This document shows, one piece after another, positions 5,632 to 49,922 of a stretch of 52,689 bases of DNA. How positions within the stretch are numbered: the stretch's first letter is position 1; every line of letters begins with the position of its first letter. Origin of the DNA: Blastocatellia bacterium (GTDB lineage Bacteria > Acidobacteriota > Blastocatellia > HR10 > J050); contig JALSQX010000035.1 of the NCBI GenBank assembly GCA_026985075.1, positions 1 to 52,689 on the forward strand, in the 5' to 3' direction. Made by a program: the position numbers and the translations under genes. The notes under the pieces were generated by a model. It was not told where the DNA came from. It ran no database searches and worked only from the letters and a program-made list of their open reading frames with translations.

Positions 5632-7119
5632 ATGAGCACACGAATTGCGGACTCAGCACTTCGAGGAGACAGCCAGCCCGCGCTCCACAGAGGGCCGGTG
5701 GGGTTCAGGCGCATTTTCCCCCTGGCGGTGCCGCTGGGGCTGGGGGCTCTGTTCGTTCTCGCTCAGTGGCAGGGGATCATTCCTCAGCTCAGCACCGAGA
5801 CCGGGCTCGTGACGCTGGCGCTCGTCAGCTACCTGGCCGCCTCGGTGCTCTCGGTGATGTTCGTCATTCAGCGAGAGCCTCTGCTGGAGAGAGTGACCAT
5901 CGTGATGGCTGCCGTGGGCTTGGGAGCGAATGTCGCGGCATGGGGGACGCGGGGTCTCATTGCGCAGCATTATCCGTTGACCAATCTCTATGATACGGCG
6001 CTGGCGCTCGGCGTGACGACGGCGGCCGCCACGCTGGTGATGGCCGCCACGTATCGGCATCGGTTCGTCAGCACGATCACGCTTCCCGTGGCCGCCATGT
6101 TTCTCATCCTGGCCAGCCTCTACGGGAATCAGCTCACCGAGATGCCCCCGGTCCTGGTCAGTTACTGGCGCCCCATTCACGTCAGCATTGCCATGACCGC
6201 CTATGGCGTCTGTGCGCTGACCTTTGCCCTGGGCCTTCTCTATCTGCTCAAAGATGGCATGAAAACGGAGACGTTGGGTCTGTTCGTGATGCTGGTGCCG
6301 TTATTGACCTACGTCTTTCTCTCCGGTGGGCGGATCCTCACCGATGGGGCGTTTGAGATCAGCCTCCTCATTCACGGGTCGCGCATCCCGGTCAATGAGG
6401 CCAACACCGAATTCCTCCGGGCCACCATCCCCTATGTGGGCCAAGTGTTCCGGCTGGCCCTGGTCGGTTCATTGGCCGTGATTCTTTGTTTCGCGGGCTA
6501 TCTCATCGCGCAGCGAGAGACACTGAAAGCAGTCGGCCATTGGCTCGTCCGGGGGCTCCTGATCATCCAAGCGGCGGGATTAGGCCTTTTGTTCTATGAG
6601 ATGAAGGTCGCCTCACCGGTCGATCTCATCGTGCCCGGCCAGCGGGCATTGATCCCGGCGGCATGGTTGAATCAGTTCGGTCCGCAGCTCGAGTTGCACT
6701 ATCGAGGGAACCCGGTGGGCATCGCCTGCATTGTCGTGGCCGTGGCCGTGACCGCTTTCCTTGCTTTCTTCGCCTGGAAGCGAGAGCGCATCCTGGAGGC
6801 CGTCCCGTCCCTGAGCACGCTCGACGACCTGACGTACAAAGCGGTGAGCGTCGCTTTTCCTCTTCTCGTGCTCATGACCATTACCGGGGCCGTGTGGGCC
6901 AACGAGTCCTGGGGGCGATACTGGGGTTGGGATCCCAAGGAGATGTGGGCGTTCATCACCTGCTTGATCTATGCCGTCTTCCTCCATACCCGCATCGTGC
7001 ACGGGTGGAAAGGGAGAAAAACGGCTCTGTTCGCCGTGGTGGGATTCATCTCCGTGATCTTCACCTATCTCGGCGTGAGCTTCATCCTGCCCGGCCTCCA
7101 TTCCTACGCCACGTTGTAG
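5632..7119 (+). CDS. ccsB: System II cytochrome c biogenesis protein CcsB/CcsA-type (haem handling)
   Basis: A polytopic CcmF/CcyK/CcsA-family protein that delivers haem to apocytochromes c. The haem-binding tryptophan signature is clear (ESWGRYWGWDPKEMW, near residue 430). A second conserved histidine region (LHTR) and a C-terminal GLHSYATL follow. GGGAGGAG precedes the ATG at 5632. At 495 residues it is longer than the usual 300-400. The extra length is a middle block of about 180 residues with added hydrophobic segments, between the first helices and the WWD core. No ResB partner is in the window. The 3' end overlaps the convergent S41 gene by 38 bp. Confidence 0.9.
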   Translation: MSTRIADSALRGDSQPALHRGPVGFRRIFPLAVPLGLGALFVLAQWQGIIPQLSTETGLVTLALVSYLAASVLSVMFVIQREPLLERVTIVMAAVGLGANVAAWGTRGLIAQHYPLTNLYDTALALGVTTAAATLVMAATYRHRFVSTITLPVAAMFLILASLYGNQLTEMPPVLVSYWRPIHVSIAMTAYGVCALTFALGLLYLLKDGMKTETLGLFVMLVPLLTYVFLSGGRILTDGAFEISLLIHGSRIPVNEANTEFLRATIPYVGQVFRLALVGSLAVILCFAGYLIAQRETLKAVGHWLVRGLLIIQAAGLGLLFYEMKVASPVDLIVPGQRALIPAAWLNQFGPQLELHYRGNPVGIACIVVAVAVTAFLAFFAWKRERILEAVPSLSTLDDLTYKAVSVAFPLLVLMTITGAVWANESWGRYWGWDPKEMWAFITCLIYAVFLHTRIVHGWKGRKTALFAVVGFISVIFTYLGVSFILPGLHSYATL

Positions 7120-8800
7120 ATGGGGCGAGGAAGCCCTGGCGGTTGTCGGAGCGGGGCGCCATCAGACGTGATGTGGCCCGCTTGGCCGTCAGGCGGGCCC
7201 GGTATTTTTCGGCCAATTCCGTCGCCTGGGGAATGGCGTCTAGTGCTTTGAGAAGCTGGAGGTCGATCTCATTGAGCGCTTGCGCGGCCGTCTCCAGTCC
7301 ATAAGCGGCGGTGGCCACCTCGAATCGAATGTACACGCGGGCGAACTCTCGATTCTTCTCGATGGTTGCTGCCGAGATGTGAAAGTCGCGCCGGTGAGCC
7401 AGGACAAACTGGGCAAAGGCGTCGAGCACGGCGTCGGTGATCCGATATTCCTGGTCGCCGAGGACGTGATGGAACTCGATCTTCTCCACCCGATAGGCCT
7501 CCAGACCCGGGATTAACCCGGCGACCAGTTCGCGGGCGAAGGCGAAAATCGCTCCTTGCAGGCGAACCTGATCCTCGGTCAACTGGGTGGCGGGAACGAT
7601 GATATCGGGTGTGATCCCTCCACCGCCGTAGAAGGTGCGGCCCGATTCGGAGTGGAAAGCGGGTCCCGATCGAGGCGGGGCCGTGGACGGCGATGGGCGC
7701 GCGCCAGGGCGATGTCGCGCGTAGTAGTCGTAAAAAGAGAGATTATCGTATGTGCGCTGAATCAATCGGCCGCTCGGCGTGAGGTATTTGGCCGTGGTCA
7801 AGGTCAATCCAGCCCCGAAGGGGAGCGGCATGATGGTTTGAACCAGGGCCTTGCCGAACGTGGGTTCTCCGACGACGAGCCCCCGATCGTGCTCCTGGAT
7901 CGCCGCCGTGACGATTTCCGAGGCCGAAGCCGTGTTCTCGTTCACCAGGACGAGCAGGGGGGTCAGATTGGGATGGGGGTTCCGCGAGGTGTAGACCTTC
8001 TGACTGGCGCGGCTCTTCTGAGTGAGAATGACCTGTCCCTGGGCGAGGAATTTCTCTGCCGTTCGCACGGCCTGATCGAGGAGACCGCCTTGATTATTCC
8101 GCAGGTCCAGGATGAGCGCCTTCATGCCCTGGGATTCCAGGCGACTCAGAGCCCGAGTGAGTTCCTCGTCAGTGGTCGTGTTGAACCCGCGTTGCAGGCT
8201 GACGTAGCCGACATCTCCCTGAAGGAGATAGGCGCTGGAGATGCTGGGCAGAGGGACGGCGTCGCGGACCAGTTTGACCGTGCGCGGCTTTTTCTCGCCG
8301 GCGCGCAGAATCTGCACTTCGACGGCCGTCCCTCGTGGGCCGCGCAGCCGCGCCGACACCTGAGCCGAGGGCCAGCCTTCGATCGACTCGCCGTTGATGG
8401 CCACGATTTGATCTCCATAGCGGAGCCCGCCGCGATAGGCCGGCGTATCGGGGAATGGAGCGAGGATATACACTTTCCCGTTCCGCGTGCCGATGGTGGC
8501 GCCGATGCCGAAGTATTGACTGGTCTGCTCGATACGAAACCGGGCGAACTCCCGCTTGTCGTAGTAGTGGGAGTGCGGGTCCAACGTATGGAGCATTCCC
8601 AGGATGGCCATCTTCGTGATCTGCTCATAGTCGAGCTTGTCGGCATAGTGCTCTTCGAGCAAAACGACGGCATCGGCGAAATCGCGCAGGATGGCACTCT
8701 CATCGGTTCGCGCCGGATCCCCGGTCGCGGGTGATGGCGATGAAGCGAGCAGGGCCCCCAGCGCCAAAAGAGCGAGGAATATCTTCGAGGCTCGTTTCAT
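7082..8800 (-). CDS. S41 C-terminal processing peptidase (CtpA type) with PDZ domain
   Basis: The order is: signal peptide (about 1-25), N-terminal helical region, PDZ domain (about 95-180, RGGLRYGDQIVAINGE), then the S41 catalytic core. The serine lies in NENTASASEIVTAA and the lysine in TFGKALVQT, the Ser/Lys dyad of tail-specific proteases. A C-terminal extension of about 180 residues follows the core. The family trims periplasmic or cell-wall-associated substrates. At 572 residues it is longer than typical CtpA (about 400-450). The final codons overlap the ccsB 3' end tail to tail, so the extreme C-terminus is constrained by two reading frames. Confidence 0.92.
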   Translation of the reverse strand: MKRASKIFLALLALGALLASSPSPATGDPARTDESAILRDFADAVVLLEEHYADKLDYEQITKMAILGMLHTLDPHSHYYDKREFARFRIEQTSQYFGIGATIGTRNGKVYILAPFPDTPAYRGGLRYGDQIVAINGESIEGWPSAQVSARLRGPRGTAVEVQILRAGEKKPRTVKLVRDAVPLPSISSAYLLQGDVGYVSLQRGFNTTTDEELTRALSRLESQGMKALILDLRNNQGGLLDQAVRTAEKFLAQGQVILTQKSRASQKVYTSRNPHPNLTPLLVLVNENTASASEIVTAAIQEHDRGLVVGEPTFGKALVQTIMPLPFGAGLTLTTAKYLTPSGRLIQRTYDNLSFYDYYARHRPGARPSPSTAPPRSGPAFHSESGRTFYGGGGITPDIIVPATQLTEDQVRLQGAIFAFARELVAGLIPGLEAYRVEKIEFHHVLGDQEYRITDAVLDAFAQFVLAHRRDFHISAATIEKNREFARVYIRFEVATAAYGLETAAQALNEIDLQLLKALDAIPQATELAEKYRARLTAKRATSRLMAPRSDNRQGFLAPSTTWRRNGGRAG

Positions 8801-8928
8801 AGGCGCACTCTATTACGGCGTTCTCCTACGGACCACCGATCTATTAAATCACACCGGGGCCAAACAGGGAAGGGACGTTTACCGGCGAGGCGATCCAAGG
8901 GCTGTGCTCCACAATGCGCACGCTCCCA

Positions 8929-9360
8929 CTACTGGGGTGGCATTTCTTCTTGAATGATGTGTTTCAGCTCCTGGCGGAGCTTCTCGATCTCCTTGATCTT
9001 GGATTCGATGCGCTCAAAGAGAGCCGCCTGGGCCTTGATCCCCTCGCTGATCAGGAAGGCGGCGCTTTCGGAACGACTCTTGAAAATACCCGTCTCGACG
9101 AGTTGATCAATGCGCTTCAGCGCTTCATCATTGACGCGCACCATGAGGGGGAAATCGCGACCGGCGAGCGCCCGTTCCACGGCCTTGGAGATGGATTCGG
9201 GGATCTTCGCGGCGAACTCCCTGACCGATGCCGCCAGGTCGTCGATCGCCGTTTCCACGCGCCCGGTGGGCTCCTCGGTCGATTCGGCTTTCCGGACCTC
9301 GATCTGGGTCTGGTCCGGTTCTTCGGGTCTTTCTTCGATAGTGACGTCGGGCTCTTTCAT
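8929..9360 (-). CDS. Ribbon-helix-helix (CopG-like) protein with coiled-coil tail
   Basis: A 143-residue protein. The N-terminal third is acidic and low in complexity. An RHH DNA-binding fold (about 77-115, LMVRVNDEALKRIDQLVETG then SRSESAAFLISEGI) is followed by a charged coiled coil. I used the ATG at 9360 (MKEPDV), which has GAGGGA upstream. The GTG at 9375 has none. The first strand (MVRV) suggests a DNA-binding regulator, and the target is unknown. It lies between the S41 protease and the nucleotidyltransferase, all on the minus strand. Confidence 0.65.
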   Translation of the reverse strand: MKEPDVTIEERPEEPDQTQIEVRKAESTEEPTGRVETAIDDLAASVREFAAKIPESISKAVERALAGRDFPLMVRVNDEALKRIDQLVETGIFKSRSESAAFLISEGIKAQAALFERIESKIKEIEKLRQELKHIIQEEMPPQ

Positions 9361-9421
9361 AGATGCTTCCCTCACCAGTGATCACATCCACCCGAACAGT
9401 GTATCACCTCCCGGAGAGAAG

Positions 9422-10177
9422 TCAATGTCCCGTTCCGGCGCGGCGCTCCCGGTGAAGCCGGGCAACGAGATTATTGGCCAGGAGTAAACTCTCGAACGTC
9501 CCCGCATCGGTCCACCAGCCATCGAGAATATCGTAGGTCATCTGGCCGCGCGCGATGTAGGTGTTGTTGACGTCGGTGATCTCCAACTCGCCTCGCTGGC
9601 TGGGCGTCAGTCCGCGGATGATGTCGAAGACCTGAGCGTCGTAAAAGTAAATCCCCGTCACGGCGTAGGGCGAGGCCGGGGTGGCCGGCTTCTCCTCGAT
9701 ACGCACGAGGCGTCCATTCTCGATGACCGGAACGCCGAATCGCTGTGGGTCGGGGACTTCCTTGAGCAAGATCTTGGCGCCCGAGCCCTGCTCGAGGAAG
9801 CTCTCCACATATCGAGAGATGGATTTCTCGATGATGTTATCGCCGAGAATGACGCAGAGCAGACCGCCATCGGCAAAGTGCTCGGCCAGACCGAGCGCCT
9901 CGGCGATGCCTCCTTCTCCCTCCTGATAGGTGTAGTGGACGTGATGAAGGCCGAATTCCTTGCCGTTTCCCAGAAGGCGCAGAAAATCGCCGGCGTTGTT
10001 CCCGCCGGTGACGATCAAAATATCTCGGATGCCCGCCTCCACCAGGGTCTGGATGGGATAGTAAATCATCGGTTTGTTATAGACCGGCAGCAGGTGCTTG
10101 TTGGTCACCTTGGTCAACGGATAGAGCCGCGTCCCCAGTCCACCGGCCAGGACGACGCCCTTGATGTGTTTCGCCAT
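9422..10177 (-). CDS. rmlA: Glucose-1-phosphate thymidylyltransferase-like nucleotidyltransferase
   Basis: The product makes NDP-sugars from sugar 1-phosphate, the first step toward dTDP-sugars such as rhamnose. The signature LAGGLGTRLYPLTKV and the KPMIYYPIQ motif are near the N-terminus. GDNIIE supplies the metal-binding aspartate. IEEKP and GWWTDAGT are also characteristic of RmlA. At 251 residues it is the short form and lacks the C-terminal allosteric helices of 290-residue RmlA. The other rml genes are not nearby, so the sugar and nucleotide remain uncertain. Confidence 0.88.
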   Translation of the reverse strand: MAKHIKGVVLAGGLGTRLYPLTKVTNKHLLPVYNKPMIYYPIQTLVEAGIRDILIVTGGNNAGDFLRLLGNGKEFGLHHVHYTYQEGEGGIAEALGLAEHFADGGLLCVILGDNIIEKSISRYVESFLEQGSGAKILLKEVPDPQRFGVPVIENGRLVRIEEKPATPASPYAVTGIYFYDAQVFDIIRGLTPSQRGELEITDVNNTYIARGQMTYDILDGWWTDAGTFESLLLANNLVARLHRERRAGTGH

Positions 10178-10265
10178 AGCCGAAGCTCCTCGGTTCCTCG
10201 CAGTGTGAGGGCGTTATTTATCACAGAGCGAGGGCGAGCGCAAGAGCGCGCGCTCGCCAGGGTGC

Positions 10266-11384
10266 TCATCTGACGGCGATGCCCGATGGACGGGCTCGGT
10301 CGTTCCCGAGGTCGAAGGGCGAGGCCTCGATCTCGACCAGTCGCCGGCGCGCGAGCCGGAGGACGTGGAGGGCGTGCTCTCTGACGTCGGCGGCGAGGGC
10401 GAACGTTCCATTCGGATCGATGGCGATGGGCCGCAGGGTCTCCCCAGCGGTGGGAAACGGCGAGCGGGGATCTCGTTGCAGACTGCCGTTGAAGCCGATG
10501 CGGTAAAGATACACGCCGGCCTCTCCGGGCGCCGTTCCCAGCAGGAATTTCCCGTTGGGAGCGATGGCCAATCCGTGCAGAGCTCCACTCGATGAGCCCG
10601 GAAAAGGGGAACCGACAAGGGGCGTCAGGTCGCCTTGCGCCGAGAGACGAAATCCGACAATCCCATCGGCCTCGGGACCCGTGGCGTAAAGAAATCGATC
10701 CTCTGGCGTGATGACCGAGGTCTGAAGCGGCCACTCGGTTGGACTCTCGGCCAGCGGCGTCACTGCCCCTTCGGGTTCGATCCGGTACACGCTCACGGCA
10801 TTCTCGCCCACGATGAACAACAGTTCGCCCGTAGAATTCACCATCAACGCCGCCGGTTCTCGTAGTGGGCGCACATCAAAGGGCGAGCCGGGAAGCGGAA
10901 GCAATCGCCCATCCGAAGCGATAGAGAAGACGCCGAGATCTCCGGAAATGAAATGGCTCACGAAGAGGAGCGTTCCTTGGGGATTGGTGGCCAGAGCCAC
11001 CGGAAGCCGACCGCCCGTCTCGAAGGGAGACCCCTCGACGAGCGTGAGCGATCCATCGGCATGGATGTCAAAGACGCTGATCGTATCGCTCGCCGTATTG
11101 CACACGAAGAGGAGATCCTTCGTGGACCAGATGGTGGCGTTGGAGAAGACTCTGAACACCGAGGCTCGCCCACCATCGCCTCCGGTGGGAAAAGGAGAGC
11201 CAGGGATGGAACTGAGCTTCCCTTCGGAATCCATCCGAAAGGCCGAGACGGTGTTCGGGCGGGTCTCGTTGTTGACGTAGATGAACGGAGCCTGAGCCGG
11301 AGCGGGCTTCATCAAGAGCCAGACCGCCAGCGACAGCAGATAACCGAACCACGGAGAAGACGTTCCCATAACTGCTGATTTCAT
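10266..11384 (-). CDS. Exported lactonase-family (YVTN-type) beta-propeller protein
   Basis: The 372-residue product has an N-terminal hydrophobic signal sequence ending near AQA. Repeated blades follow, with a recurring GSPFPTGG or SPF motif every 45-50 residues and strands such as LLFVCNTASDTISVF. This matches the 6-phosphogluconolactonase-like seven-bladed propeller. Export to the periplasm makes a pentose-pathway role unlikely. AAGGAGG precedes the ATG at 11384, and upstream in-frame ATGs lack such a site. Confidence 0.82.
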   Translation of the reverse strand: MKSAVMGTSSPWFGYLLSLAVWLLMKPAPAQAPFIYVNNETRPNTVSAFRMDSEGKLSSIPGSPFPTGGDGGRASVFRVFSNATIWSTKDLLFVCNTASDTISVFDIHADGSLTLVEGSPFETGGRLPVALATNPQGTLLFVSHFISGDLGVFSIASDGRLLPLPGSPFDVRPLREPAALMVNSTGELLFIVGENAVSVYRIEPEGAVTPLAESPTEWPLQTSVITPEDRFLYATGPEADGIVGFRLSAQGDLTPLVGSPFPGSSSGALHGLAIAPNGKFLLGTAPGEAGVYLYRIGFNGSLQRDPRSPFPTAGETLRPIAIDPNGTFALAADVREHALHVLRLARRRLVEIEASPFDLGNDRARPSGIAVR

Positions 11385-11633
11385 GACGCATCCTCCTTCA
11401 TAGCTCGTTTTCATCTTTCCAGTGTGGACCGTGGTGGCCATGAGCGACTCCCTCGAAAATGTAGCGCAAGATGGCATCTGGCGCTACTCACTCCTTTGGT
11501 GCGGTCCGCAAAGCGATGAGCGACTTCCACGAAGACGGAGCGCGGGATGGCATCTTGGGCTCCATCCTCAAACGGGGCCAAGCCAATGAGAGGGATGAAC
11601 GCCTCCCTCAAGGCCAGAGCTATGCCACCGGCC
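11385..11633. other. Gap between propeller gene and phage-like element
   Basis: No gene is firmly supported. A minus-strand frame from about 11411 to 11640 encodes a protein-like stretch (ALREAFIPLIGLAPFEDG) but lacks a good start and may be a decayed last gene of the element. The palindrome at 11461-11487 lies inside it. Confidence 0.4.
11461..11487 (-). terminator. Strong 27-nt palindrome, probable end of the mini-element operon
   Basis: GTAGCGC (11461-11467) pairs with GCGCTAC (11481-11487), and the inner AGATG (11469-11473) with CATCT (11475-11479). There is one mismatch pair and a 1-nt centre. On the minus strand it is followed by ATTTTC, a weak U tract. It may instead be an operator or element boundary. 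Confidence 0.5.
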
Positions 11634-11861
11634 TCACTCCGGATCGAAGCCGAGAAGTTCCCAGTCCTTGACTTCCACCCAGGCCACGTGCCGCTCAAAT
11701 GCCCGCAGCGCGCGCTCCAGATCGTTGTGCGCCTCATCCTCGGCGAGCTCCACATCCCCGCTCCCGTTCCTGGCGCCAAACTCGATCGTCACCCGCAACC
11801 GAGCATAGAGCGGCACATCTTTCTGGCGCCCATAGCGACTCATCATCAGCTCAGGCATCAT
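11634..11861 (-). CDS. Small hypothetical protein, last gene of phage-like operon
   Basis: A 75-residue acidic protein (MMPELMMSRYG to LLGFDPE) whose start overlaps the end of the upstream gene by 11 bp, implying translational coupling. The central part (ARLRVTIEFGARN, then AEDEAHNDLERALRAFERH) suggests a small alpha/beta fold. I do not recognise a family. Its position downstream of the Zn/NFDPVW gene is the only functional hint. Confidence 0.55.
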   Translation of the reverse strand: MMPELMMSRYGRQKDVPLYARLRVTIEFGARNGSGDVELAEDEAHNDLERALRAFERHVAWVEVKDWELLGFDPE

Positions 11862-12189
11862 CGGCCGGAAAGAATCCGCCGCACTCGTCCAACCACACCG
11901 GATCGAAGTTGAACGGCCAAAAGAACCACCCGTTTCTCACAGCATGTGGGTCGCATCGCAGCTCAAATGGTGGGTCAAGGACATGGGATTCATCGTCGCC
12001 ATCGGCTCTCACCATGTCAAGTCCCCATCGACGCCGATCGATGACGCCCGTCGCCGCCCACTCGGACACCAGCTCGCCCAACCGGCTCAACACGACGTTC
12101 GCAACGGACGGATGGACGCATCTGGAATGCACCGATCGGGGCGCCTCTTGCCGATATTTGCACTGGTAGCAGATTCCTCGTCTCTTCAT
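11851..12189 (-). CDS. Zn-finger-like phage-type protein with NFDPVW motif
   Basis: A 112-residue protein. The N-terminus has a CxxC pair and a further cysteine and histidine (CYQCKYR, then HSRCVHP) that probably bind zinc. The C-terminus has NGWFFWPFNFDPVWLDEC, a pattern I recall from uncharacterised proteins of phages and mobile elements. The ATG at 12189 overlaps the upstream stop codon as ATGA and has AAGGAGG upstream. Longer in-frame sequence to 12429 lacks a ribosome-binding site. No enzymatic role is known to me. Confidence 0.7.
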   Translation of the reverse strand: MKRRGICYQCKYRQEAPRSVHSRCVHPSVANVVLSRLGELVSEWAATGVIDRRRWGLDMVRADGDDESHVLDPPFELRCDPHAVRNGWFFWPFNFDPVWLDECGGFFPADDA

Positions 12190-12836
12190 GTTGAACCTCC
12201 TTGGGTTTCGGTCTGCCGCTTCCGCGCCAGCTTGTATCGCAGGTATCGCATGTACTCGGCCGACGACCGCACCCGCTGATAATCGGGATTGAGGATCTCG
12301 GGCACGAAATAGGCGAAACTGCGAATCGGTCTTGGCGCGCGCAAGGCGGCCATCATCATGGCCATCTGAACGCCCTCTAATGGCACGGCTCGTATCCGCT
12401 GGTAGGCCTGCTGATCCCGCTTCGTCCACCGATTTCCCGTCAGTTCGGTGTACAGATTGATGATGGTGTTTTCCGTCTCTCGACCAGAGCTCGAGTGATA
12501 CGTGGAATCACCATCATCACGATCACTAACATCATCTGCCCGCGAATGACGGCACAAGTACTCCTTGACGGCACCCTCGACCACCTCGCTGAGAGACCGG
12601 CCACGGAAGGCGCAGAATAGCTTTAACTCCATGTAAATCTCATAGTTAACCCGCACGGTCAGCTTCTGCCGCTGGACGGACGGAACCGCCCCACTGCCGT
12701 CAGAACGGTCAGTGACGGCAGCCAGCTTGCCGCCAGACGGCACGGACCCATCTGACGGCTTGCCGTTCCCGGGCCGGGGCACGGAACCCCCGCCCGTCGC
12801 TGACCGGCGTCCCTCTGGACCCACTCGCTCACTCAT
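12186..12836 (-). CDS. RHH protein with C-terminal helical domain (replication-type, mobile element)
   Basis: 216 residues. About 1-65 is disordered (Ser/Gly/Pro-rich). An RHH domain follows (about 66-100, LTVRVNYEIYMELKLFC then SLSEVVEGAVKEYL). The C-terminal helical part (INLYTELTGNRWTKRDQQAY, RSFAYFVPEIL) resembles helical domains of plasmid or phage replication and partition accessory proteins. The ATG at 12836 has AAGGAGG and overlaps the upstream gene by 8 bp. DNA binding is well supported. A role in replication or copy control is inference. Confidence 0.68.
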   Translation of the reverse strand: MSERVGPEGRRSATGGGSVPRPGNGKPSDGSVPSGGKLAAVTDRSDGSGAVPSVQRQKLTVRVNYEIYMELKLFCAFRGRSLSEVVEGAVKEYLCRHSRADDVSDRDDGDSTYHSSSGRETENTIINLYTELTGNRWTKRDQQAYQRIRAVPLEGVQMAMMMAALRAPRPIRSFAYFVPEILNPDYQRVRSSAEYMRYLRYKLARKRQTETQGGST

Positions 12837-13173
12837 CGCCACCTCCTTCAGAAAACAAGAGCGGATAACGCTCCCTGAGATCGGGGAACGTCCGCACCAT
12901 CGCTCGCGCAATGGCCAGCGTCTCATAGGCCGACCCCAGGAAATGAGAGAGGAAGCGTTCCATCTCCGCCTCCGTCCGAATGAGGAAATACCCCTTTTTG
13001 CTCCTCTTGCTCGATCCGATCGGAATCCCCGATAACCGCGCTCGCCTGACGGCCTCCCACACGGTGATCCGGTCGCAACCGAGCTGCTCGGTCAACTGCC
13101 TGGCGGTGATCGGATCGCCGGCATCGTGCGTCGAGATCAGCATGATGATCCGCTCGTACGGCGCCCGGTTCAT
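12829..13173 (-). CDS. Small HTH DNA-binding protein
   Basis: 114 residues. A winged-helix-like HTH (about 18-60, ITARQLTEQLGCDRITVWEA, then GYFLIRTEAEMERFL) resembles BirA-type or HTH_11 domains used by phage regulators and replisome organisers. The wing ends with a basic turn (GSSKRSKKGYF). The ATG at 13173 overlaps the upstream stop as ATGA with AAGGAGG in front. The longer frame to 13404 only mirrors the upstream gene. It probably binds element DNA. Confidence 0.7.
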   Translation of the reverse strand: MNRAPYERIIMLISTHDAGDPITARQLTEQLGCDRITVWEAVRRARLSGIPIGSSKRSKKGYFLIRTEAEMERFLSHFLGSAYETLAIARAMVRTFPDLRERYPLLFSEGGGDE

Positions 13174-13583
13174 ACCTCCTCCTTGGCGCGCAATACCGCC
13201 ACCACACCGGTGTGCATCCGCTTCAGGAACTCGATCTCGGCCTCTAACTTCTGCTGCTTGACTCGCAATGCCTTGATCCGCCGCGCCCGCCTCTGATAGG
13301 TGGCATTCTGATCCAGCGCGTGTTGCACCGCCTCCTGGCGCGCCTTCTCGTTGGTATACCTCAAACTCCCTTTCGCCTTCTTCTCGGCGCGTACGCTCAA
13401 ACACACGCGGAGCTTTTGCCGCTCCTGCCTGGCCAACTGATCGGTCAACTCGACCCCTACGGCGATCAGCTCCAAACGTCTCTTGCGTAACTCCAGCGGC
13501 AAACGAGTGGCCAAAAGCTCCAACTGCTGACCCTTGACCGTGCCCAACCGCTGATCCTTGGCAATCGATCGTCTGCTACTCAT
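13170..13583 (-). CDS. Basic coiled-coil phage-type protein
   Basis: 137 residues, rich in Lys/Arg/Gln and predicted almost entirely helical. The central TNEKARQEAVQHALDQNATY, followed by a leucine-rich coiled coil with EFLKR, matches my recollection of small phage proteins encoded near single-strand annealing or SSB genes. No such gene is present here. I chose the ATG at 13583 (MSSRRS), preceded by GGAGGG 7 nt upstream. The frame extends to 13898 but runs through repeat DNA. It is coupled (ATGA) to the HTH gene downstream. Confidence 0.65.
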   Translation of the reverse strand: MSSRRSIAKDQRLGTVKGQQLELLATRLPLELRKRRLELIAVGVELTDQLARQERQKLRVCLSVRAEKKAKGSLRYTNEKARQEAVQHALDQNATYQRRARRIKALRVKQQKLEAEIEFLKRMHTGVVAVLRAKEEV

Positions 13584-13636
13584 CAGCTTGCCCTCCTGCA
13601 ATCGCGGGGGAACCCGAAGGCTCCCCCGGAAAAGGC

Positions 13637-13721
13637 CGTCCGACCGTGGTGGACAACGGCGTCGCCCCTCGGACCCGAACCGTCCGCCCTCACCATGAGG
13701 TCGTCCGACCGTGGTGGACAA
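13637..13721. repeat. Two 20-bp direct repeats, 65 bp apart, inside the element
   Basis: CGTCCGACCGTGGTGGACAA occurs exactly at 13637-13656 and 13702-13721, in the 185-bp gap between the small membrane protein and the coiled-coil gene. Each has imperfect dyad symmetry (GTCC/GGAC ends). They may be operators or a replication or partition site for the RHH/HTH proteins. Confidence 0.7.
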
Positions 13722-13728
13722 TGGCCCC

Positions 13729-13768
13729 GGAGCGTGGGGCGGGGAGCAGGGAGCAGGGAGCGGCGAGC
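13729..13768. repeat. GGAGC-type heptamer repeat tract
   Basis: Degenerate tandem GGAGCAG/GGAGCGT units lie just beyond the small membrane-protein stop codon, in the same family as the tracts at 14050, 14715, 47891 and 49817. Confidence 0.65.
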
Positions 13769-13987
13769 TCAGAAGATCAACTCCACACCCCCGAGCGCCC
13801 GCTCGCCTCGCTTCTTCCGCTCGCGAGCCCCCTTGGCGGCCGCATTGATCAACGCCCCCATGGCCGCCATGACCGGCACCTTGACCACCGGCGGCCACGC
13901 CAAAGAACCGAGCGCCTCGGTCCCCATGACCGCCACCATGGCCAGCGCCTGCCCCGCTAACACCCGAAAAAATCGCTTCATGTTCAT
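13769..13987 (-). CDS. Small membrane protein of the phage-like operon
   Basis: 72 residues. A short basic N-terminus is followed by two hydrophobic stretches (about 8-30 and 34-52), the second Ala/Gly-rich, and then a basic tail (ARERKKRGER). Its ATG overlaps the holin-like gene's stop (ATGA), so the two are translationally coupled. Paired small membrane proteins at this place suggest a lysis or membrane-pore module, which is inference. Confidence 0.6.
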   Translation of the reverse strand: MNMKRFFRVLAGQALAMVAVMGTEALGSLAWPPVVKVPVMAAMGALINAAAKGARERKKRGERALGGVELIF

Positions 13988-14313
13988 TCGTTCACCTCCT
14001 CATCCGACGACGAAAAATCGGACGCCCGGCCCGACGATGGGGAAGCCGTGAGCGTGGAGCGTGGAGCATGGAGCGTGGAGCGTGGAGCATGGAGCCGGGA
14101 ACCCTCATCACCAGATGACCGGACCGAGCGCCCAACCGAACTACTAAGGAGGGTCTCGACGTGTGGAGAGCGCCTGATGACCTCGTACAACACCTCCCGG
14201 AGATTCCGAACCTCATCCCGCACCTCCGCCAGCCGCCCCTCTAACCGCAACAACACAAACGCCGCTACCGCCGCCGGAAACCCAATGTCTTTGATCGCTG
14301 TCGTGAGGTCCAT
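13984..14313 (-). CDS. UviB/BhlA-like holin-type protein with repeat-encoded tail
   Basis: 109 residues. The N-terminal transmembrane helix with DIGFPAAVAAFVLLRLEGRL, followed by a short amphipathic helix (EVRDEVRNLREVLYEVI), is the layout of UviB/BhlA-like small holins. About residues 70-88 (HAPRSTLHAPRSTL) are encoded by GGAGC heptamer repeats that have expanded in frame within the 3' end. The ATG at 14313 lies only 8 nt after a consensus -10, so the mRNA is essentially leaderless. It is the first gene of the operon. Confidence 0.68.
   Translation of the reverse strand: MDLTTAIKDIGFPAAVAAFVLLRLEGRLAEVRDEVRNLREVLYEVIRRSPHVETLLSSSVGRSVRSSGDEGSRLHAPRSTLHAPRSTLTASPSSGRASDFSSSDEEVNE
14050..14100. 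repeat. GGAGC heptamer tract inside the holin-like gene
   Basis: About seven units alternate between GGAGCGT and GGAGCAT. The tract is in frame with the gene and encodes the HAPRSTL peptide repeat. Confidence 0.85.
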
Positions 14314-14321
14314 CGAAATGT

Positions 14322-14350
14322 ATTTTACAATAATTTCATCGTACTGTCAA
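14322..14350 (-). promoter_or_regulatory. Consensus sigma70 promoter of the phage-like operon
   Basis: On the minus strand, a perfect TTGACA (14345-14350), a 17-bp spacer and TAAAAT (14322-14327) lie 8 nt before the ATG at 14313. The predicted start site falls at or 1-2 nt before the start codon. Confidence 0.8.
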
Positions 14351-14382
14351 TGAAAATAGGTTAAAATGAAAAAATTATTTTA

Positions 14383-14410
14383 TTGACATTGCTTGGAATT
14401 CATGTAGAAT
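14383..14410 (+). promoter_or_regulatory. Consensus sigma70 promoter of the divergent RHH gene
   Basis: A perfect TTGACA (14383-14388), a 16-bp spacer and TAGAAT (14405-14410) lie 10 nt before the ATG at 14421, leaving a leader of about 3-4 nt. The -35 boxes of the two divergent promoters are 32 bp apart in an AT-rich island. Confidence 0.8.
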
Positions 14411-14420
14411 TTGGGACATC

Positions 14421-14666
14421 ATGACGAAACAAATTACTATCTCATTAAAAGACGAGCTTGCCGACAAATTGGCACGCGCTGCGGAGGAGACTTGCAAAAC
14501 GGAGCCCGCAGTGATCAGAGAAGTCCTCCACTACTTTCTTGAGGCCTGGTTAGAAGCAGAGAGAGCCAAACTGGAGACGGTGCGTAAGATGACGGGACAG
14601 ACCAAGCGCGAGAGTCAGCAATCGCGTCGCGGAATCAAGAAACGGATTACGGGGTCTGGCCAATAG
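14421..14666 (+). CDS. RHH (CopG/Arc-type) regulator of the phage-like element
   Basis: 81 residues. The RHH fold (KQITISLKDELADKLARAAE, then EPAVIREVLHYFLEAWLEAE) fills the first 50 residues. A basic tail follows (TKRESQQSRRGIKKRI). It is divergent from the seven-gene operon, with back-to-back promoters between them, the classic place for a repressor that controls both directions. No toxin gene follows it, so a simple antitoxin role is less likely. The gene is more AT-rich than its surroundings, consistent with transfer. Confidence 0.78.
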   Translation: MTKQITISLKDELADKLARAAEETCKTEPAVIREVLHYFLEAWLEAERAKLETVRKMTGQTKRESQQSRRGIKKRITGSGQ

Positions 14667-14990
14667 GGAAGCGATGGCAAGGAGCACAGATGTTGGAGCG
14701 CGGGGTTGGCTCCTAGCTCCCTGCTCCGCACTCCGCGCTCCGTGCTCTATGCTTCGCGCTCCCTGCTCCGCGCTCCGTGCTCTATGCTCCGCGCTCCCTG
14801 CTCCGTGCTGGACGGAGGTGGGCTCACGGTTGAAATACTCCGTTCATCATATGAATCATTCTTTTCATGCCTGAAACTGGCGTGGAGTGGGTCGGGGGCG
14901 GTGGGGGGTGAGTCCTGCTCCGAATTAACTCTCAGATCTCTTGTCACTTACCATTGACCGGCTGGGGGTTCGGTCTCGCCGATTGGGAAG
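14667..14990. other. Gene-free stretch with heptamer repeats upstream of the flp promoter
   Basis: This holds the heptamer tract at about 14715-14810 and a short palindrome TTCATCATATGAA (14843-14855), roughly 160 bp upstream of the sigma54 core. An activator could bind there. Short open frames in the repeats are not believable genes. Confidence 0.5.
14715..14810. repeat. Long GGAGC heptamer tract (reverse orientation)
   Basis: About thirteen degenerate units, read on the plus strand as GCTCCGC, GCTCCGT, GCTCTAT and GCTCCCT. They include a larger repeated block (from about 14736 and again from about 14770). The tract sits between the RHH gene and the flp promoter. Confidence 0.85.
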
Positions 14991-15006
14991 CGGCACGCCA
15001 GTTGCA
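14991..15006 (+). promoter_or_regulatory. Sigma54 (RpoN) promoter of flp
   Basis: CGGCACGCCAGTTGCA matches the -24/-12 consensus TGGCACG-N4-TTGCW at all but the first base. GG is at 14992-14993 and GC at 15004-15005. The predicted start is near 15016, giving a leader of about 147 nt to flp. Confidence 0.8.
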
Positions 15007-15020
15007 ATCAATAAGGGGCG

Positions 15021-15139
15021 AGAAATCGCAAAGCTAATGAAGAGAGGAAGCGGAGTGATGCGACATGCAGAGGCGAGACAGTCGAACATAGGAGCGGATG
15101 CTGAAGTGGAGGTTGTGACTCGTCGGGCTTGCGATTTCT
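15021..15139 (+). ncRNA. Structured 5' leader of flp closed by an 11-bp helix
   Basis: AGAAATCGCAA (15021-15031) pairs perfectly with TTGCGATTTCT (15129-15139). After one bulged A, two more G-C pairs extend the helix. The enclosed loop of about 92 nt is purine-rich. The helix begins only about 5 nt after the predicted sigma54 start, as expected for a leader domain such as a riboswitch or stabilising element. I could not match it to a known class. Confidence 0.45.
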
Positions 15140-15162
15140 AATTACATTCTCAAGGAGGGACT

Positions 15163-15336
15163 ATGAACATGTTGAGCACACTGTATGCCTTTCTCAGAAA
15201 TGAAGAAGGGCAGAGTCTAGCCGAGTATGCGCTGATCTTGGTCTTGGTGAGCATTGCTGCGATCACCGCCTTGACCGCGCTGGGAGGCGATATTTCGAGC
15301 ACCTTCAATACGGTGAGTAATACGCTTGGTGGTTAA
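15163..15336 (+). CDS. flp: Flp-family major pilin
   Basis: 57 residues, the structural subunit of the Tad pilus. A short leader ends in glycine (RNEEG), then QSLAEYALILVLVSIAA gives the Flp signature. The predicted prepilin-peptidase cut after Gly16 puts Glu5 and Tyr6 in the mature pilin, followed by the hydrophobic helix. AAGGAGGG lies 6 nt before the ATG. It has its own sigma54 promoter and terminator, so it is expressed separately from the assembly genes. Confidence 0.93.
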   Translation: MNMLSTLYAFLRNEEGQSLAEYALILVLVSIAAITALTALGGDISSTFNTVSNTLGG

Positions 15337-15423
15337 TTCCCAGCGCAAAACGTAAGAGATAGTGCCATCGGCGGGCTCAACCCGGTGCTTGTGGCCTCTC
15401 TCCTCCTGTACCTTGATTGTGGC

Positions 15424-15460
15424 GCTGTGGTTCGTCCAGTACGGGCCACAGCTTTTTTTT
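15424..15460 (+). terminator. Rho-independent terminator downstream of flp
   Basis: GCTGTGG (15424-15430) pairs with CCACAGC (15446-15452). CGT/ACG can pair within the loop, and eight T residues follow (15453-15460). It is 87 bp after the flp stop codon, so flp is probably transcribed mostly alone. Confidence 0.85.
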
Positions 15461-47890: not shown

Positions 47891-48050
47891 GAAGCAGGAA
47901 GCACGGAGCAGAGAGCGAGGAGCCGGGAGCGCGGAGAAAACAGCAACGAACCATTCCATCCACGCGAGAGTGAGGGCAATATATAAGCCGGGAGCGCGGA
48001 GAAAACAGTAACGAATTCCCCGCCCCATGCTCTTCGCTCCATGCTCTTCG
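47891..48050. repeat. GGAGC heptamer tracts with two 30-bp direct repeats
   Basis: Degenerate GGAGC units run at 47893-47935 and in reverse sense near 48030-48050. A 30-bp block (47921-47950) containing GGGAGCGCGGAGAAAACAG recurs at 47986-48015 with one mismatch, 65 bp apart. They lie in the gap between the binding-protein gene and the TPR gene. Confidence 0.85.
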
Positions 48051-48054
48051 CCCC

Positions 48055-49779
48055 TCACCGACGAGGGCCGATGAACAATTGCTCGGCATTCCACAACACG
48101 TAGTCGTAGAGAATGCCCGGTTGAAGGTTCCCTATCGATCGTCGGGCGGCCACCAGCAGATGCCGCGCCACCAGCGGGATGACCGGGACCTGCTCGCTCA
48201 TGATCTCCTGGACGCGATCGAAGAGTCTCTTTCGTTCGGCGCGATCGAGCGCGCTCGCCTGCTTTTTCATGAGCGCGTCGATCTCCGCTTCCCACGGCGT
48301 GGCCGGCGTTTCCTGACGAGGATACCACCAGTGAAGCGATCCGCTACTCATCAGGAAATTCGTCTTGGACGTCGGACCGACGCTCGTAGAGAGCGCCAGC
48401 AGGCAGGCCTCATAATCGAAGTCGCGCATGATCTTCCCGATGAGCGTCTTGGTCTCCACGGGCACAAACCGCACATCGATCCCCACTGCCTTCAAATCTT
48501 CCTGGATCATCAACCCCATGCGTTCCCGCATGCGATTGCCGGCATTGGTGATGAGCGTGAACCGAACCCGATGTCCGGCGGCATCTTCCCTGATTCCATC
48601 GCCATCGCGATCGACGAGTCCCATCTCGTCCAGGAGGGCCGCCGCTCTCTGAGGCTCGTGCCTGAAGACGGGAATCTTCGAGTTACACCACTCCACTTCG
48701 CCGGGCGAGACGAATCCCGACAGCGCAGTCGCTTTCCCATCGAACACGGCATCGATGATCGCCTCGCGATCAATCGCCCAGGCGATGGCCCGGCGAAATG
48801 CCGCCTGGCTGAACCACGTTCGCTTGACCGGATCGACGTAGGGCTTCCCCGTCTCCGGATGACGACCCGGGTTCAGGTTGAACCACAGCAGCTCGCTGAT
48901 CAGGCTGGGACCGAGATCGATGACATCCACTTCCCCCCGCTCGACCGGGGCCTCCAGCGCCTGGGCGTCGGCCGGCCGGAGGGGATAGATCAGATCGACT
49001 TCTCCCTGCTGGAGCTTCAAGAGACGAGTACTGCGATCGGGAATGATGAGGAAGTCGATGCCTTCCAGGTAGGGCAGCGCCTCTCCCCGCTCATCGCGTT
49101 TCCAATAGTGAGCGTTCCTCACCACCACGGTGCGCTGGCCCGGCTCGTAACTCTGCAGGCGGAAGGGCCCGGCACCGACAATCTCAGCCGGCGGCGTCGA
49201 CACCCCCCACGCGGCCTCGAACTGCCCCTCCCGATAGAGCGGCTCGAGAATGTGTCGCGGGAGGATAGGGACATTATCGAACAGGCTGAGCGCATCGGCG
49301 TAGGGTTCGGGAAACGTGAACCGAACGGTGCGCGCATCGAGCTTCTCGACCTTGAGCGGCTCGCCGCCCACGCGGAGAATATCGGCTACCGATGAGGGAA
49401 TCTCAGGATCGTAGATGACCCGAAATGTGAACACGACATCATCGGCGGTCAGCGGATGACCATCGGCGAACTGGAGGCCCGGCCGCAAGCGCATGGTGAG
49501 CTGGCGGCCATCGGGCGAAAATTCAGCCCGTTCGGCCAACTCCAGCTCCGGGCGCTGTGTGCGATGATTGAGGCGGACGAGCGTGGCATGGAGGCAATCG
49601 AGGATGGTGATGGTATTGTTATCATCGGCCACTAATGGATTGAAGGTGAGAGGCCCCGATGACTGCGCCACCACCAACCGCCCCCCACGAGCCGGACTCG
49701 ATGGGTTCTCCGCGCTCCACTGGCAGGAGAGCAGGACAACGGAGATGAGAAGCGTGAGCGCTCGGCGTGCTGGTTTCAT
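48055..49779 (-). CDS. ABC transporter substrate-binding lipoprotein, peptide/nickel (family 5) type
   Basis: 574 residues. A lipoprotein signal ends with LLSC (about residue 19). The SBP_bac_5 fold is clear: GPLTFNPLV, MRLRPGLQFADGHPLTADDV, then AFRRAIAWAIDREAIIDAVF. It binds peptides or other solutes in the periplasm for the adjacent permeases. The ATG at 49779 has AGGA upstream. The longer frame to 49881 runs through repeat DNA. It is divergent from the permease genes. Confidence 0.92.
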   Translation of the reverse strand: MKPARRALTLLISVVLLSCQWSAENPSSPARGGRLVVAQSSGPLTFNPLVADDNNTITILDCLHATLVRLNHRTQRPELELAERAEFSPDGRQLTMRLRPGLQFADGHPLTADDVVFTFRVIYDPEIPSSVADILRVGGEPLKVEKLDARTVRFTFPEPYADALSLFDNVPILPRHILEPLYREGQFEAAWGVSTPPAEIVGAGPFRLQSYEPGQRTVVVRNAHYWKRDERGEALPYLEGIDFLIIPDRSTRLLKLQQGEVDLIYPLRPADAQALEAPVERGEVDVIDLGPSLISELLWFNLNPGRHPETGKPYVDPVKRTWFSQAAFRRAIAWAIDREAIIDAVFDGKATALSGFVSPGEVEWCNSKIPVFRHEPQRAAALLDEMGLVDRDGDGIREDAAGHRVRFTLITNAGNRMRERMGLMIQEDLKAVGIDVRFVPVETKTLIGKIMRDFDYEACLLALSTSVGPTSKTNFLMSSGSLHWWYPRQETPATPWEAEIDALMKKQASALDRAERKRLFDRVQEIMSEQVPVIPLVARHLLVAARRSIGNLQPGILYDYVLWNAEQLFIGPRR

Positions 49780-49816
49780 GGTTGTTTTTCCTGTATTCTT
49801 TTCCGTCGTGCTTGGT

Positions 49817-49868
49817 TCTCGGGAGCCGGGAGCATAGAGCACGCGCCAAGCTCCACGTTCTGCGCTCC
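49817..49868. repeat. GGAGC heptamer tract between binding protein and permease
   Basis: Units GGGAGCCGGGAGCATAGAGC on the left and reverse-sense CTCCACG/GCGCTCC on the right form an imperfect inverted arrangement in the divergent promoter region. Confidence 0.6.
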
Positions 49869-49922
49869 TTTTGCGGACCAAGCACCACGAGATTATACGG
49901 CTCGTCTGAGAGAGATCAAGCC

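Follow-up and report, generated by a model that had tools for sequence, protein, structure and literature searches.

The window analysed here, a stretch of 52,689 nucleotides from the genome of a Blastocatellia bacterium (contig JALSQX010000035.1), harbors a compact block of small genes between a gene for a lactonase-type beta-propeller protein (PF10282) on the left and the Flp pilin gene of a Tad locus on the right. Seven small genes run on the minus strand from 14313 to 11634 and are faced by a divergent gene for a ribbon-helix-helix (RHH) protein (Table 1). A preliminary description of this DNA, made from the letters alone, had seen in it a phage-like mini-element with an RHH switch, and all eight open reading frames (ORFs) were confirmed in place and orientation. 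Codon-position GC is coding-like in all genes of the block and five of them have strong AGGAGG-type ribosome sites. That most genes are joined by ATGA overlaps was half right: three junctions (YvrJ/membrane, coiled-coil/HTH and RHH-helical/Zn) have the four-nucleotide overlap, whereas two others overlap by 8 and 11 nucleotides and one is a gap of 185 bp (13584-13768). Most attention is given below to the gene whose product joins an RHH domain to a helical domain, since it apparently holds its own repeats.

Table 1 Features of the inserted block and its candidate initiator gene (positions in the window).
Feature	Position	Strand	Length	Remarks
YvrJ-family small membrane protein	13984..14313	-	109 aa	operon gene 1; near-leaderless; PF12841 match
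Small hydrophobic protein	13769..13987	-	72 aa	ATGA-coupled to YvrJ; strong ribosome site
Basic coiled-coil protein	13170..13583	-	137 aa	
Winged-helix/HTH protein, phrog_2113 family	12829..13173	-	114 aa	HTH_11 and phrog_2113 matches
RHH + helical (DnaD/O-like) domain protein	12186..12836	-	216 aa	candidate replication initiator with internal iterons
Zn/NFDPVW protein	11851..12189	-	112 aa	CYxC...H..C...GWF-WPFNFDPVWL..C
Small protein	11634..11861	-	75 aa	11-nt overlap with Zn gene
Divergent RHH protein	14421..14666	+	81 aa	candidate repressor; near-leaderless; PF01402 over cut-off; promoter 14383-14410
Divergent promoter/operator region	14314..14420	.		two sigma-70 sites + inverted half-sites
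Iteron cluster 1	12696..12759	.		GCCGTCA at 12696 (+), 12713 (-), 12753 (-) + one-mismatch copies; N-terminal linker codons
Iteron cluster 2	12547..12572	-		GCCGTCA at 12547 and 12566, 19 bp apart; between RHH and helical-domain codons
Whole inserted interval	11386..14810	.		absent at same site of same-genus genome

The block is an insertion. In a genome of the same genus, the flanking parts of the window (6001-11385 and 14811-15460) align to one contig with 87.7% and 87.9% identity, and 436 bp of unrelated sequence replace positions 11386-14810; the site in this relative is thus empty of the block, as is the case for an integrated mobile element. Because the relative carries these 436 bp, the ends of the block are placed to this precision only. 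A search for attachment-site (att) duplications, which the preliminary description had proposed to look for, and for target-site duplications gave nothing convincing, only a 10-mer at 11537/14695 that is at chance level and lies in GC-rich repeats, and the window holds no tRNA gene that could have served as integration site. As had been noted before, integrase, capsid and transposase genes are missing from 11386-14810, judged from the ORF list and from Pfam and PHROGs matching. The same interval has none of the packaging and structural genes of a complete prophage, and the hallmarks of phage satellites of the PICI, P4 or PLE type, that is, an integrase and helper-hijacking genes, were not found in the block.

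The seven-gene set had been described as unfamiliar, and no second copy was seen in about 400 genomes of the phylum, in IMG/VR or in the phage and plasmid collections, searches of limited reach in which not every protein was run against every collection. A DNA search of phages with the whole block found nothing, nor did tblastn of phages with P0002, P0004, P0007 and the YvrJ part, or a plasmid search with P0009, P0004 and two RHH/winged helix-turn-helix (wHTH)-helical relatives; scans of IMG/VR with P0009, P0002, P0001, P0007, P0005 and the helical-domain alignment gave no confirmed match. Conservation of the genes together, by which the preliminary description wanted its proposal to be judged, was thus not seen for the whole set, but single parts belong to phage or plasmid families, and the RHH-helical family is recurrent and mostly linked to parA. 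Could the block still be active, as an integrase-less satellite or phage-plasmid that relies for its movement on a helper phage or on a transposase acting in trans? Its absence in the sister genome, its intact genes and the presence of a switch and a candidate initiator would agree with this, and a RepA_N initiator is in use in phage satellites such as PLE (PMC7145576). Since these searches gave no second copy of the set, and the block shows no duplication beyond the chance-level 10-mer and no gene for packaging or integration, we regard an active satellite as rather improbable.

Expression of the block is probably governed by the 107 bp between the divergent genes. A minus-strand promoter (TTGACA-17-TAAAAT, 14350-14322) and a plus-strand promoter (TTGACA-16-TAGAAT, 14383-14410) each match the sigma-70 consensus at 11/12 positions; for all of the 3.8 kb scanned, the expectation is 0.9 promoter-like sites. 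From the end of each -10 box it is 8-10 nucleotides to the ATG; therefore, both predicted messages are near leaderless. An inverted pair of half-sites, TGTCAATGAAAA and ATTTTATTGACA, overlaps both -35 boxes, and we infer that it is bound by the 81-aa divergent RHH protein, which matches PF01402 over the cut-off. One could also think of this protein as the antitoxin, and of the small membrane proteins as the toxins, of a toxin-antitoxin or host-domesticated regulator operon, in line with weak antitoxin matches of the RHH (phrog_6494, 0.002; RelB-like, 0.011). A divergent layout with seven co-transcribed genes is atypical for such systems, and the phage early genes would be left unexplained, so that we give this view hardly any credence.

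The first gene of the operon had been called holin-like, which was not supported: the one basis for it is a match to PF12841 (YvrJ; E 1e-8, 35 bits vs a curated cut-off of 29.5), a family without known function. YvrJ matches at E <= 1e-3 occur in 2/195 related genomes and are over the cut-off in this genome only. Nothing was found in favor of a domesticated membrane-acting module, which the preliminary description had considered; a replication module is better supported. The 72-aa hydrophobic protein has no match in Pfam, PHROGs, IMG/VR or the phage collection, and the 75-aa small protein has none in Pfam, PHROGs or IMG/VR. The basic coiled coil has one weak relative (32% identity); it comes from a different genome of the class, where it has an integrase as neighbor.

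The wHTH protein matches HTH_11 (4e-6) and phrog_2113 (1e-10). In four other genomes of the phylum, ORFs beside members of its family read as MuA/MuB-like genes, and this would fit a deletion remnant of a Mu-like transposable prophage of which semi-early genes survived. The gene order is different, however, with the membrane genes upstream of the HTH gene; the inserted interval lacks MuA, MuB, GemA and Mor, and none of the Mu-like prophages that were inspected has an RHH-helical or NFDPVW gene adjoining the wHTH gene. We therefore consider a Mu origin of the block very unlikely.

A viral connection is also seen for the zinc protein. The NFDPVW family has 56 loci in IMG/VR vs 3 matches in 84,980 genomes, and its 54 aligned members have 12 invariant columns, including the CxxC...C...C cysteines and GW..P.NFDP.W. 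The viral neighbors include genes for SSB, RecT, YqaJ, DNA polymerase, DnaB, a DnaC-like loader, exonuclease, RNA ligase and HNH proteins; no neighbor at any of these viral loci matches another protein of the block. The family (alignment A3, loci L044-L105) is spread over more than 50 diverse contigs of uncultivated phages. No relative was found in Pfam, PHROGs or the PDB, and a fold search with the model of the protein gave no match. The NFDPVW zinc proteins apparently form an undescribed family, found beside phage genes of DNA metabolism, and they clearly deserve a study of their structure and function in its own right.

AlphaFold modelled the RHH-helical protein with confidence over the RHH (helices 65-101) and over the helical domain (115-213), which are joined by linkers. 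Among the VIA-align rows, the RHH part pairs with RHH folds such as CopASO, an antitoxin and omega, and the top partner of the helical part is lambda P in complex with DnaB (Z 6.4, root-mean-square deviation 3.4, 78 residues), followed by DnaD (Z 6.0, root-mean-square deviation 4.0, 72 residues). The helical domain is also the C-terminal part of proteins of the class that have an N-terminal wHTH of the phage O type (PF04492, HTH_36), and proteins that share it match Phage_rep_O, phrog_678 (O-like), phrog_186 and phrog_7498 (DnaD-like loader). With one helical domain joined to either RHH or wHTH, the family thus swaps its DNA-binding domain. The nearest relative of the RHH-helical protein (L025) comes from another family of the same order (41-49% protein identity). 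In about ten of the relative loci parA lies directly upstream of the gene; a further relative (in G003) sits at a contig end, and its upstream sequence is beyond the contig. The genome studied here has, on contig C71 (L024, 8320-10231), a second pair, of parA and a wHTH-helical initiator-like gene; within the latter, some ten copies of a TTGAACGTTCAA-type palindrome lie to either side of the codons for the wHTH.

The coding sequences of these genes contain iterons. For each of 12 RHH-helical genes (alignment A4), the count of the commonest k-mer on both strands was set against 200 shuffles of the gene's synonymous codons, and at k=7 the gene of the window and its 11 relatives (12/12) exceeded all 200 shuffles. 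Among 16 other genes of the window tested in the same way, 15 were unremarkable at the 5% level; the remaining one, the YvrJ gene with its heptamer array, gave a marginal result (5/200). The iterons are specific to each gene, 7-12 bp long, and flank the codons of the DNA-binding domain on both sides, with one cluster in the linker ahead of the domain and one just after it. GCCGTCA is present in five exact copies in the window gene and in 11 copies in L025, as compared to maxima of four and seven, respectively, in 5000 synonymous shuffles. The two GCCGTCA copies of cluster 2 lie at homologous codons in the two genes; the linker copies do not. Between genes the motif varies, and two other closely related members have GCTATAC in common. 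The wHTH version elsewhere in the genome contains ACGTTCA 11 times, as part of the near-palindrome ATTGAACGTTCA. Sharing of iterons between relatives would be as expected if the RHH reads the repeat. In a single genome (G016; loci L026-L034, L043), 11 matches to the RHH-helical family were found, and the iterons differ among the RHH-helical genes analysed there; the matches suggest several coexisting replicons or islands.

Taken together, the block is on balance probably a horizontally acquired module of a phage or phage-plasmid that carries genes for replication and regulation but none for mobility or structure; it would most likely be a remnant. We favor this reading because of the empty sister site, the intact genes, the phage-family wHTH, the viral NFDPVW family, the O/DnaD-like helical domain, the iterons and the adjacency to parA in relatives. 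A phage-like mini-element with a divergent RHH switch and no integrase had already been proposed in the preliminary description, which is supported in this; the absence of the block in the sister genome, the internal iterons and the heptamer arrays around the switch go beyond it. From the promoter anatomy, the 81-aa RHH protein would sit on the symmetric half-sites over both -35 boxes and keep the operon off. Upon relief, the operon would produce two membrane proteins, the coiled coil, the early-type wHTH protein, the RHH-helical protein, the NFDPVW zinc protein and the small protein. The RHH half of the RHH-helical protein would then bind the GCCGTCA iterons that flank the RHH codons within the gene encoding it. 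The helical half is apparently related to phage O and DnaD-like loaders and may recruit the replicative helicase or primase of the host and so start replication.

It is tempting to go one step further and to regard the RHH-helical genes as a new class of initiators, in which an RHH dimer, in place of a winged helix, reads iterons that flank the codons encoding it. As each gene has its own iteron, one parA-linked cassette would have diversified into many compatible replicons, and the window would hold an integrase-less, phage-derived form. We propose this tentatively, with about as much doubt as confidence on our side and rather more of the former. If true, the RHH version, which has no relative in the plasmid collection searched, would extend the design to a different DNA-reading fold, and it predicts that the repeat of each RHH-helical gene is read by its own RHH. 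With an origin inside the initiator gene, an entire replicon can move as a single gene, and a swap of specificity takes one domain and its repeats. A candidate initiator gene that apparently holds its own repeats is a clue to how small mobile elements begin copying.

Several results weigh against a replication module. A Z-score of about 6 in VIA-align is within the noise range for helical domains, Foldseek gave no E < 1 and DnaD did not appear at a useful E-value, the helical-domain profile finds no solved DnaD by sequence, and a DnaD-like PHROG is matched on the domain alone by only 2/21 members. The searches described above found the RHH-helical gene in no viral contig or plasmid record. Further, the block has no evident parA, integrase or origin-melting region, and the AT-rich trough in the gene is shallow (45% GC). 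The iteron array of the window is the weakest of the set, with five exact 7-mers vs 6-12 in the RHH relatives; the origin may therefore have decayed, which fits an element in decay.

Since many relatives directly follow parA, the iterons may also, or instead, serve as a partition site. In the main rival explanation for the family, the RHH-helical protein would bind a centromere and regulate its own gene in the manner of ParG or omega; the internal iterons would be this centromere, and in the window the protein would be an orphan that has lost its parA. This reading draws on the parA gene immediately upstream in about ten relatives and on the resemblance of the RHH to ParG, omega and proteins of the CopG type; a repeat length of 7 bp is suited to RHH dimers, as is known from the omega heptads. 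On the other hand, the helical domain is common to wHTH proteins that match the replication families O and DnaD, the block is without parA, and known centromeres are usually outside the gene. A role in partition instead of replication is thus unlikely in our view, albeit to be taken seriously.

Other repeats occur in and around the block. The strong palindrome that was thought to close the operon is not specific to it: 11437-11561 contains, twice, a palindromic repeat (GATGGCATC core) that is dispersed between genes over about 33 places in the genome, in both orientations. This left palindrome and the D4 repeat were considered as att sites and rejected, both being genome-wide. Arrays of the heptamer GGAGCNN lie at 13729-13768, 14042-14102, 14709-14811, 47891-48054 and 49822-49868 (34 matches vs 0.56 expected), often as inverted pairs; one array is read through as the C-terminal end of the YvrJ protein, and pairs flank a gene for a solute-binding protein (48058-49881). 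The only intergenic gap of the operon has a 28-bp direct repeat (AGGCCGTCCGACCGTGGTGGACAACGGC; 13633-13660 and 13698-13725, 93% identical, 65 bp apart), possibly a binding site. At the very start of the contig (1-283), tandem 22-bp units (CTTGCCCGAAAACCCAATATT) are arranged with a higher-order period of 98 bp.

How does the block compare to known systems? With the early region of Mu-like prophages it has one gene family in common, the phrog_2113 HTH; all other hallmark genes are missing and the order is different. The RHH centromere-binding proteins ParG and omega, which work with ParA, resemble the RHH-helical protein in their fold, in short repeats and in the parA gene beside most relatives, but the latter has an additional helical domain of the replication type, its repeats are in the gene and the block has no parA. 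The lambda origin lies inside the O gene, and lambda O (Phage_rep_O) is similar in that the iterons are in its own gene; moreover, relatives of the helical domain have the O-type wHTH (PF04492). In contrast, the reader is an RHH in the block protein, and the block is without a P-like loader gene of its own; the helical half of the RHH-helical protein may act as the loader.

The RepA_N initiators (pSK41, pTZ2162, the pPR9 hybrid and PLE RepA) likewise consist of a DNA-binding part and a helical part, DnaD-like in RepA_N and possibly so in the block protein, and have repeats within the coding region of the initiator, which in RepA_N are the iterons of the origin. In pSK41, four Rep boxes are inside rep, the linker encoded there is dispensable and the C-terminal part resembles DnaD in its five helices; in pPR9, the DNA-binding part of the initiator is swappable (PMC5703833). 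The iterons of RepA_N genes are only central, whereas those of the RHH-helical genes are on both sides of the codons of the DNA-binding domain, and the RHH-helical gene is part of a phage-like operon without an identified copy-control RNA. Its N-terminal DNA-binding part is an RHH and gave no match to the RepA_N winged-helix domain (PF06970); because this defining winged helix is absent, the protein is not a member of RepA_N. By analogy, we infer that the RHH-helical gene would work like the initiators of pSK41 or lambda O, but with an RHH as reader.

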